Shown: piece after piece, positions 16,599 to 18,939 of the stretch | Position numbering within the stretch: the stretch's first letter is position 1 | Layout of the letters: each line of letters opens with the position of its first letter | Assembly: GCA_029265815.1 (NCBI GenBank) | Contig: JAJUGU010000002.1 | Coordinates: 124,001-188,000 of the forward strand | Direction: 5' to 3' | Length of the DNA: 64,000 nucleotides | From: Anaerolineaceae bacterium | GTDB taxonomy: Bacteria; Chloroflexota; Anaerolineae; Anaerolineales; Anaerolineaceae | Translations under genes and position numbers: made by a program | Notes under the pieces: generated by a model | What the model saw: the letters and a program-made list of their open reading frames with translations, nothing else | Database searches by the model: none | What the model was told of the DNA's origin: nothing

Positions 16599-18020
16599 TT
16601 AAGTTCCGGTTTCAAAGAAATGTGTTTTTTCGATGGTGGGCGCAGTTTCGTTCTCGTTCCTTCCCAGATACGGCTGCAGTTCGGGGGTGACCTCTGCGAC
16701 CTGTTCGGCGATGCGCTGGGCGACACGCCGCACAGCGAAGTGGGCATTTGGTGCGGTGCGCAGACGAATGAAGTGGATCAGGCTGCGAAGGTTCGTTGTA
16801 AGCAGCACACGGCGGTTGAATCCGTTGGGTACCACATAAGATGCCAGCGCGGGATTGACCGACTCGAGTGCCAGGTAAGTTTCACGCGCGCCATCCATCG
16901 CTTCATTATATAGGTCTAAGGCACCAGCTGCCTGGATGATGCGCGGAACCGCGTATCCAAGGCTGGTGGTAAGACGCTGGGGGGTCTGGGTCATCATGCG
17001 GTGGCGTTTGACTTCGTAATAGGCGCCCTGGTCCATAACGATGTCAAAAGTAAAGGTAACGTACTCCAGCTCGCGCGCCGGGATGGTGTGCGCATCAAGG
17101 TCACCGAGCAGACAGTACAGCCATGCGCTTTTCTTTTTTGCCGGAGCCGCGCGCACCCAATCTAACGCTTGCGCATAGTTTATTTCAGTTTCGCGGTAAA
17201 TTGCCGCTGCCAGCAGGCGGTCGATTGCCTGCGTTTCATAATGCTGCAGGGTGCACCAGTCACTCGTCTTATCAGGTGGCGAATAGTTGACCTGTGAGAA
17301 TTCATTGCACACGTCCTGCAGGTAGGGGATTTCGGAAACGTATTTTAACAATGTTGGGATGGATTCACGGGCTGCGTCTCTGATTTGTGCGCCGCTTTCT
17401 CTTACTTCCTGCAGCGGGCTGGTGAGCATTTTGCTGATGGCGTGTTCCAACTCACGTGCGTTGATGGTCACGCCAACGTTGGCCAGCGAAGCAGCAGGCA
17501 ATAGATAGCGGCAGGCGTCGACTGCTCTTGAGCGCATGCGCCGGGCATACTGTGCTTCCGACTCGTTTTCTATAACCGCTTCTGTAGATTTCAAATGCTC
17601 CAGTATGGCTTTCAGGCAAGTCTGGTAGACCTCGAACAGGTGGGTGCAGGTTTGAACATAACGGTCTTTTAATGGTCCGTCAGTCAATTCAGGTGGAACA
17701 TAAAACGCATCCGCGTCCCAGGTCTGGTAGCGGGTGGATTTTTCGGTATATGAAGCCAGGCGGTTTGATTCGAGAGATTCTACCGCCAGGCGTGAGATGT
17801 TCTCGACGGCGATGTGCAGCACAGCGTGTTCGGCCACGCTGGAATGTCCGTATCCCACGACCCATTTTTCGTTGAATTCAGCACTGCGTGCTGCGTTGAG
17901 TTCTGCCGCGATTTGCCGGAAGGATTCTGGAGAGCGGGACGTTTTAGCAAAGGCTACTGCAATGGTCTCTGGTGAATATTGCTGGGGATCAAGCAGGTAA
18001 ATTTGCCGTTCATGCGCCAT
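16599..18020 (-). CDS. tandem ThyX-like protein (two FAD-dependent thymidylate synthase-like domains)
   Basis: 473 residues from ATG 18020. GGGAG lies 10 nt upstream; a start at 18050 would run deeper into ribF. Each half resembles one whole ThyX. N-half: GYGHSSVAEHAVLHI, then ESNRLASYTEKSTRY, then LLPAASLANVGVTINARELEHAI. C-half: EYVTFTFDIV, then KRHRMMTQTPQRLTTS, then VVPNGFNRRVLLTTNLRSLIHF. ThyX makes dTMP from dUMP with FAD and methylene-THF, and its signature is RHR...SYNExSxRY. The N-half keeps SYTEKSTRY but lost RHR; the C-half keeps RHR but lost the Ser/Glu part. Thymidylate synthesis is possible but unproven. The adjacent ribF supplies FAD. Confidence 0.82.
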   Translation of the reverse strand: MAHERQIYLLDPQQYSPETIAVAFAKTSRSPESFRQIAAELNAARSAEFNEKWVVGYGHSSVAEHAVLHIAVENISRLAVESLESNRLASYTEKSTRYQTWDADAFYVPPELTDGPLKDRYVQTCTHLFEVYQTCLKAILEHLKSTEAVIENESEAQYARRMRSRAVDACRYLLPAASLANVGVTINARELEHAISKMLTSPLQEVRESGAQIRDAARESIPTLLKYVSEIPYLQDVCNEFSQVNYSPPDKTSDWCTLQHYETQAIDRLLAAAIYRETEINYAQALDWVRAAPAKKKSAWLYCLLGDLDAHTIPARELEYVTFTFDIVMDQGAYYEVKRHRMMTQTPQRLTTSLGYAVPRIIQAAGALDLYNEAMDGARETYLALESVNPALASYVVPNGFNRRVLLTTNLRSLIHFIRLRTAPNAHFAVRRVAQRIAEQVAEVTPELQPYLGRNENETAPTIEKTHFFETGT

Positions 18021-18939
18021 CTGAGAATAACTCCCGAGTTTTTTGAACATCCTTTTTGATCTGCGCGATCAACGCATCTGCATCGGGATATTTCACTTCA
18101 GAACGCAAATATTCAAAAAATTCCAGACACAGCGTCTTGTCATAGAAGCGTTCTTCGGTATCCAGCAGATGTGGCTCGATGCGCGGCTTGGGCAGAGGGT
18201 TATCGAACGTGGGTCTGACACCAACGTTAGTCACCGCCAGATAGGTTTTGCCGTCAACGGTGGCTTTGCAGGCATAGACTCCGTTGGCCGGGATGAGGCG
18301 TTCAGCAGGGATGGCCAGGTTGGCAGTCGGAAAGCCCAGCTTTTCTCCGCGGTGCTCACCGTGCACGACCGGTCCGATCACATTGTAAGGCCGCCCTAAT
18401 AAGCGGTTCGCCTTTCTGATCTCTCCCAAACGCAGCAGGCGGCGGATGTTGCTGGAGGAAACGATGTCATCTCCATCTCTGACCGGTTCAACAACATCCA
18501 CTTCGTAACCCAACGATTTACCAAAATCGGCTAATTGTTGAACAGTGCCGCCGCGGTTTTTGCCAAGGGTGAAATTGAATCCAGCCAGCAGGTGCTCAAG
18601 CCCAATATTCTTTTTCAATGCGGTCATGAAACTGAGGGCATCGATTTCTGCCAGAGAATGATCGAAACGCATCACGATCACTTCATCCACTCCTGTGGCT
18701 TTAATCAGACTGATGCGTTCATCGAGAGTTGAAAGTTCACTGCCAGGTTCCATCCTTTTAAAGAAAATTCCTGGCAGTGGGTCGAATGTAATTACGACTG
18801 CCTTGCATCCGGAGCGGTGGGCACCGGTCACTAGCGTGGTAAACAATGCCTGGTGGCCTTTGTGCACACCGTCAAATGCGCCGATGGCCACCCATGAATG
18901 TTGAATATTCTTGCTTTGAAGTGTCTCTATGAATTCCAT
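18010..18939 (-). CDS. ribF: bifunctional riboflavin kinase / FAD synthetase
   Basis: 309 residues. The N-terminal FMN adenylyltransferase domain has the nucleotidyltransferase motif GAFDGVHKGHQALF (about 19-32) and SSNIRRLLRLGEI; the C-terminal flavokinase domain (about 180-305) has GEKLGFPTANLAI and NGVYACKATVDG, then VTNVGVRPTF. It converts riboflavin to FMN and FAD. The stop overlaps the ThyX-like gene by 11 nt, so the two are translationally linked. It follows truB but behind a strong terminator and with its own promoter, whose -10 box ends 6 nt before the ATG; no Shine-Dalgarno is present. Confidence 0.96.
   Translation of the reverse strand: MEFIETLQSKNIQHSWVAIGAFDGVHKGHQALFTTLVTGAHRSGCKAVVITFDPLPGIFFKRMEPGSELSTLDERISLIKATGVDEVIVMRFDHSLAEIDALSFMTALKKNIGLEHLLAGFNFTLGKNRGGTVQQLADFGKSLGYEVDVVEPVRDGDDIVSSSNIRRLLRLGEIRKANRLLGRPYNVIGPVVHGEHRGEKLGFPTANLAIPAERLIPANGVYACKATVDGKTYLAVTNVGVRPTFDNPLPKPRIEPHLLDTEERFYDKTLCLEFFEYLRSEVKYPDADALIAQIKKDVQKTRELFSDGA

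Follow-up and report, generated by a model that had tools for sequence, protein, structure and literature searches.

Can a protein whose two halves have each lost part of a catalytic site still make one complete enzyme, and if so, how would the remaining parts be brought together? The question is raised by a gene in the window, the 64,000-nucleotide stretch of Anaerolineaceae DNA analysed here, which encodes a single chain with two ThyX (Thy1) domains on the minus strand. The active site of canonical ThyX is assembled from three subunits (PMC6514825), and the first-pass annotation had proposed that an internal duplication divided the labour between the halves of the present protein. The reading frame, both Thy1 domains and all the motifs quoted in that annotation are present (Table 1). 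The start adopted there, ATG 18020, has GGGAG 10 bases upstream and lies within an 11-base overlap with the ribF stop; an alternative in-frame ATG at 18050 is also open. Over its whole length the protein scores 183.5 bits against PF02511, in two stretches, and 99.7 bits against the NCBIfam equivalog TIGR02170 (thyX; cut-off 87.9), and a BLAST comparison of its N-half with its C-half gave nothing significant (best E 0.36).

Table 1. Features of the tandem ThyX locus, in window coordinates; Mtb, M. tuberculosis; Tm, T. maritima.
Feature	Position	Strand	Remarks
Tandem ThyX gene	16599..18020	-	473 aa from ATG 18020; 483 aa from ATG 18050; open reading frame and two Thy1 stretches
ribF (riboflavin kinase/FAD synthetase)	18010..18939	-	PF06574 and PF01687; directly upstream, overlapping
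N-half Thy1 domain	17355..17975	-	PF02511 8-190 of 191, E 6.0e-30
GHSSVAEH, N-half	17826..17849	-	Ser equivalent to S71 kept; FAD-phosphate side, role B
SNR replacing RHR, N-half	17760..17768	-	flavin-contacting Arg95 and His96 lost
SYTEKSTRY, N-half	17727..17753	-	dUMP-binding (substrate recognition) loop kept, role C
Arg of CRYLLP (Mtb R172), N-half only	17508..17510	-	dUMP-phosphate side, role C; equivalence to PolB Arg166' by residue spacing
C-half Thy1 domain (Pfam extent)	16680..17138	-	PF02511 36-191 of 191, E 3.8e-24
DQGAYYEVKRHR including RHR (16998-17006), C-half	16998..17033	-	RHR kept, role A (FAD); own motif precedes
MMTQTPQRLTTS, C-half	16962..16997	-	degenerate substrate loop
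LRTAPNAHF, C-half	16737..16763	-	Mtb R199 / Tm R174 equivalent kept, role A

The motifs lie where the first-pass annotation had placed them: the N-half has SYTEKSTRY but SNR instead of RHR, and the C-half has RHR but a degenerate loop. One assignment has to be revised. GHSSVAEH had been put on the dUMP side of the site, but its second Ser (Mtb S71) contacts the FAD phosphates from another subunit (PMC6514825), and its first His (T. maritima H53) stacks on flavin or folate (PMC11940539). The contiguous signature of RHR followed by S.R is absent from either half alone (N-half SNRLASYTEKSTRY, C-half RHRMMTQTPQRLTT) and is satisfied only by the two halves jointly; we therefore file the protein as a split-site variant and not as a canonical ThyX. 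The C-half has, around its degenerate loop, a motif of its own (D.GAY...KRHRMMTQTPQ, spanning the two adjacent C-half motif rows of Table 1) that is conserved despite the loss of the canonical loop.

The residues are divided in the same way among relatives of the window protein. Tandem loci were sampled as best matches together with stretches picked for spread, and represent part of those detected; from 140 reading frames, 22 near-duplicates (some being the same gene sampled twice) and one protein with a truncated N-half were removed, and the remaining 117 tandems were aligned with single ThyX and with the M. tuberculosis and T. maritima enzyme stretches. Of 31 aligned singles 30 were scored, L139 being excluded as a tandem N-half cut at a contig end; these 30 are mostly top-scoring Thy1 matches and hence biased toward canonical ThyX. 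With M. tuberculosis numbering, and counts in the order N-halves of 117, C-halves of 117 and singles of 30, one group of residues belongs to the C-half: R95 (1, 117, 30), H96 (6, 114, 29) and R199 (21, 117, 30). Another belongs to the N-half: S or T71 (117, 9, 30), H69 (85, 0, 30, with Asp in 31 N-halves), E or Q103 (117, 3, 30), S105 (117, 5, 30), R107 (117, 1, 30), Y or F108 (117, 0, 30) and R172 (117, 0, 30). All 117 non-redundant tandems, bacterial and archaeal, are thus complementary between halves: every N-half has S105, R107, Y/F108 and R172 with RHR broken, every C-half has R95, R97 and R199 and never S105 and R107 both, and RHR, dUMP loop and R172 occur together in no half, while all 30 singles have both residue sets. 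Since all 117 relatives agree, the complementary motif loss is more than chance. Six further tandems (L181, L182, L184, L187, L188 and L192, of which L181 and L182 belong to the genus of L114) were checked for RHR and the loop and have the same pattern. A tandem with two complete sites was met neither among the 117 nor, for RHR and loop only, among these six.

Other positions are less clean. In the same order of counts, R97 is found in 103, 117 and 30 sequences, R190 in 100, 103 and 27, R87 in 62, 0 and 28 (Ile in T. maritima), E74 in 88, 103 and 30, and N188 in 88, 102 and 29; the division is thus incomplete, most N-halves still having R97 and most halves of either kind R190. Position 199 of the N-halves is Lys in 85 and Arg in 21 of 117, beside a one-residue deletion, and the N-half loss of R199 is therefore not clean either. 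The site of S71 in the C-halves, which an insertion adjoins, depends on the alignment, most rows having R in one alignment and D or H in another; the window's own C-half is among the nine scored as S or T, and the other alignment placed R there. Furthermore, six single ThyX of the Chloroflexota family f58, outside the 30 scored, have KYR for RHR, so that a missing RHR by itself does not mark a tandem. These singles (L183, L185, L186, L189, L190 and L191) are frames of about 300-390 aa with, by eye, an insertion of about 40 residues before an EASRRY loop; six f58 genomes with two Thy1 matches had been considered as tandem carriers, and in each the two matches turned out to be one ThyX matched in two pieces. 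Among the tandems themselves, L104 (genome G033, family f32), on the deepest branch of the main tandem group, has an N-half QHR that keeps H96 and R97, as if the loss were less advanced, and the divergent tandems L114, L115, L117 and L118 (families f54, f76 and f5) carry RHR in the C-half, with HHH or HSH at the corresponding place in the N-half.

How these residue sets could meet is suggested by the published subunit roles. In ThyX, two subunits hold the FAD of subunit A, with RHR contributed by A itself and S71 and R190 by B, and dUMP is contacted by R95 and R199 of A and by R87, S105 and R107 of C, with Y108 of C as a lid (PMC6514825). PolB, a UMP/dUMP methylase with the ThyX fold (PDB 4p5a, 4p5b), offers an independent account of the dUMP contacts monomer by monomer, one monomer supplying Ser96', Arg98' and Arg166' and the second Arg86 and Arg193 (PMC5003785); by residue spacing these would correspond to Mtb S105, R107 and R172, and to R95 and R199, respectively. 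T. maritima H53, equivalent to Mtb H69, is on 'monomer-3' (PMC11940539), which we take to be role B. The ThyX tetramer has 222 symmetry (PMC3498832), by which its four sites would be made up of A+B+C, B+A+D, C+D+A and D+C+B. Judged by the residues that each half retains, the C-half would take role A and the N-half both B and C, in agreement with the published roles. If A and D are C-halves and B and C are N-halves, A+B+C and D+C+B would be complete sites, and neither of the remaining two would have any of the three roles.

We therefore consider the following scenario, which starts from a tandem gene duplication and fusion long ago, after which the halves would have lost complementary parts of the active site. 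Two tandem chains would come together in the manner of the ThyX tetramer. The C-half of each live site would hold FAD via RHR and contact dUMP through R95 and R199, a first N-half would contribute S71 and in most cases also H69, and a second N-half would contribute the dUMP loop (S105, R107 and lid Y108) together with R172. For the second live site the two N-halves would exchange jobs, and the remaining two positions, without any of the three contributions, would be dead. The earlier expectation of one or two composite sites per dimer would thereby be sharpened to two live sites per dimer of tandem chains, each made of one C-half and two N-halves, and two dead ones; with such a site composition a single chain could not complete a site. 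That the protein is a composite-site flavin-dependent thymidylate synthase, split between its fused halves, appears to us very likely; the exact arrangement of halves as laid out above is probably right, a claim we make with somewhat less assurance. From the family and the genome context, the reaction would presumably be conversion of dUMP to dTMP with methylene-tetrahydrofolate, FAD and a reductant.

Let us consider, then, the same split of labour with a different pairing, in which like halves face each other across the FAD-facing interface and a live site is made of two C-halves and one N-half. The presence of R190, a role B residue, in 103 of 117 C-halves is what such a pairing would predict. 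S71, also of role B, is present in 117/117 N-halves and mostly replaced in C-halves, and H69 is in none of the 117 C-halves; if A and B were alike, the live sites would be without S71 and H69. We consider this pairing unlikely compared with the one proposed above. As an extension of the two-live, two-dead arrangement, one may imagine an ancient class of half-of-the-sites thymidylate synthases, in which the two dead sites have been remodelled and may serve to bind some other ligand or to regulate the live sites. The motif of the type D.GAY/F...RHR..TQ..Q in the C-halves of most groups, and position 199, which is Lys or Arg in 106 of 117 N-halves, would be the remodelled features in question, and we offer this extension tentatively, as something that could be so but that we would not expect.

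In predicted structures both halves are modelled with the ThyX fold. AlphaFold2, given 27 sequences of the tandem, returned a best model with pLDDT 88.1 and pTM 0.84 (pLDDT of the five models, 88.1 to 70.2), in which the C-half (residues 262-468) fits T. maritima ThyX 3g4a_B with Z 14.2 and rmsd 2.3 over 191 residues. The whole-chain VIA-align list was filled by C-half matches, and the N-half was also modelled alone (14 sequences; pLDDT 83.7, pTM 0.80). This model matches M. tuberculosis ThyX 3hzg_A in VIA-align with Z 13.1 and rmsd 4.0 over 171 residues, the first non-ThyX structure following at Z 6.5. Foldseek also listed ThyX chains for the N-half model, but at an rmsd of about 13 to 18 when all columns are counted, and because these values are so large the fit quoted is that of VIA-align.

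The genome context bears on what the protein does. The window's genome (26 contigs, 99.43% complete) has the tandem ThyX as its sole Thy1 gene and no match to ThyA (PF00303) or to DHFR (PF00186); a second thymidylate synthase, sought with the Thy1 and PF00303 searches, was not found elsewhere in it. Among relatives, ThyA was found in 0 of 28 genomes (whose completeness is not given), and exactly two Thy1 matches, the two halves, in 28 of 28, so that in the 29 tandem-bearing genomes tested for ThyA the tandem is the only thymidylate synthase found. The proposed division of labour has thus held up on three counts, namely complementarity in 117/117 tandems, agreement with the published subunit roles and lack of any other thyX or thyA match in the genome, a canonical copy of either being half of what the first-pass annotation had said would speak against it. 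A thymidine kinase match is present, however, so salvage could supply dTMP. A genome of the same family as the window's (G176, one contig, 99% complete) has no Thy1 match, unlike the other listed genomes of that family.

The gene lies directly behind ribF, as the first-pass annotation had it, with the overlap described above. Among 21 named Chloroflexota loci (L033-L050, L054, L057 and L058), ribF is upstream on the same strand, within about 310 bases, in 17; it was not seen at L043, L045 and L050, and L044 covers only 335 upstream bases. Loci that extend further upstream usually show rbfA, a DHH/recJ-like gene and truB ahead of ribF, the arrangement of the window. Of these neighbours, mgtC and ribF are assigned by Pfam, while trpB, truB, the DHH/recJ-like gene and rbfA are named by our own reading; the same order is found in relatives. 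Adjacency to a gene for FAD supply is no evidence for the split site.

These observations allow the possibility to be weighed that the protein is a ThyX relative with another substrate, for instance UMP as in PolB of polyoxin biosynthesis, in cells that live on thymidine salvage. PolB demonstrates that the ThyX fold can methylate UMP (PMC5003785), and the thymidine kinase would permit salvage. Against this, the tandem is the sole Thy1 gene, with no ThyA match in the window's genome or in any of the 28 relatives, and the neighbours are ribF, mgtC and what we read as housekeeping genes, with no nucleoside-antibiotic cluster of the PolB type met at the locus. We regard a change of substrate as improbable by a wide measure. 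A decaying duplicated ThyX, made dispensable by thymidine uptake, would account for the loss of active-site residues in each half and sits well with the thymidine kinase, but the retained residues hardly vary, if at all, across 117 divergent bacterial and archaeal proteins and no role is missing from both halves, which makes decay very hard to credit. Many duplicated enzymes evolve into an active half and a regulatory pseudoenzyme. That common route would make one half of the present protein a working homotypic site and the other a regulator, an idea as hard to credit as decay given that no half of the 117 proteins keeps RHR, dUMP loop and R172.

We return to the composite-site reading to ask how far it extends. 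A scan of named genome contigs gave 28 tandem loci, including one of Leptolinea tardivitalis YMTK-2, in Anaerolineae, other Chloroflexota, Micrarchaeota, other small archaea and one Falkowbacteria genome, the most similar named relatives of the window protein being from Anaerolineaceae. Falkowbacteria are part of Patescibacteria, and Micrarchaeota are DPANN archaea. A tandem profile built on the window protein and on all of these loci but L054 and L059 (26 of the 28) was run over whole-genome samples, and matches with both halves in one stretch over at least 350 of 466 positions were counted by eye. Such matches occur in at least 84 of 301 Chloroflexota genomes, the window's included, with at least 15 more matching as two stretches of one frame, in at least 71 of 196 from the phylum to which the Micrarchaeota genome G319 belongs, and in at least 49 of 379 from that of the Falkowbacteria genome G324. 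Identity to the window protein is 39-64% across Anaerolineae, small archaea and the Falkowbacterium, and a presence in such hosts suggests gene transfer between distant lineages. The tandems of small archaea and the one Falkowbacterium (L051-L053, L055, L056 and L060) share 39-46% identity with the window protein.

A FastTree calculated from the 117 tandems plus the singles puts all 117 C-halves in a single group (0.947); a second group (0.998) comprises 114 N-halves together with L139. In a 64-row tree, 19 chosen N-halves group together (100/99), as do their 19 C-halves (100/94), and L114, L117 and L118 join the C-halves, not the N-halves. The AU test does not reject one clade of all N-halves (0.451), of all halves (0.38), or L114, L117 and L118 as a group of their own (0.158). 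One ancient duplication would be the simplest reading of these trees, and the odd tandems may have arisen a second time, convergently and with the same polarity. The complementary losses imply that neither half could be dropped, and this is perhaps the reason that these enzymes stay duplicated.

The duplication itself has been known since 2009, when Chloroflexi except Dehalococcoides were described as having only ThyX with a domain duplication, found in a few other species too and uncharacterised (Valas and Bourne 2009, PMC3224940). The window protein likewise combines two ThyX domains in a single chain and comes from a Chloroflexi genome with no ThyA match, and it is almost surely of the same family. 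Complementary loss, a composite site and occurrence in small archaea or Falkowbacteria are not mentioned in the accessible part of that paper, and no account of a duplicated or split ThyX was found in those of PMC3655853, PMC9931769, PMC5954106, PMC9894754 and PMC10733785. Our literature search, with most subscription journals outside its reach, returned no account of complementary motif loss in tandem ThyX, and as far as it shows this loss is the new part. The thymidylate supply of the 29 genomes would then rest on a form of the enzyme for which that search found no bench study, and labour is split between the halves in this way in further bacteria and in some archaea as well.

In comparison with the canonical ThyX of M. 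tuberculosis and T. maritima (TM0449), the tandem enzyme has the same fold in both halves, according to the predicted models, and the same overall set of residues. Canonical ThyX is one chain of about 220-250 aa with every residue and four equal sites, whereas in the tandem the residues are split over two fused domains and two sites per assembly are expected. PolB shares the fold but is a single-domain homotetramer. Some enzymes have a degenerate duplicated partner and build their sites solely between unlike halves, complementary loss after duplication having fixed an obligate unlike pair. The tandem ThyX would work in a like manner; it would differ from them in the covalent fusion of its halves and in sites that each draw on three domains. 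As every subunit of canonical ThyX has every residue, the three roles can be separated there only by mixing mutants. The tandem ThyX would be a natural separation of these roles, each fixed to one half, by which the three-subunit model of the ThyX site becomes testable residue by residue.
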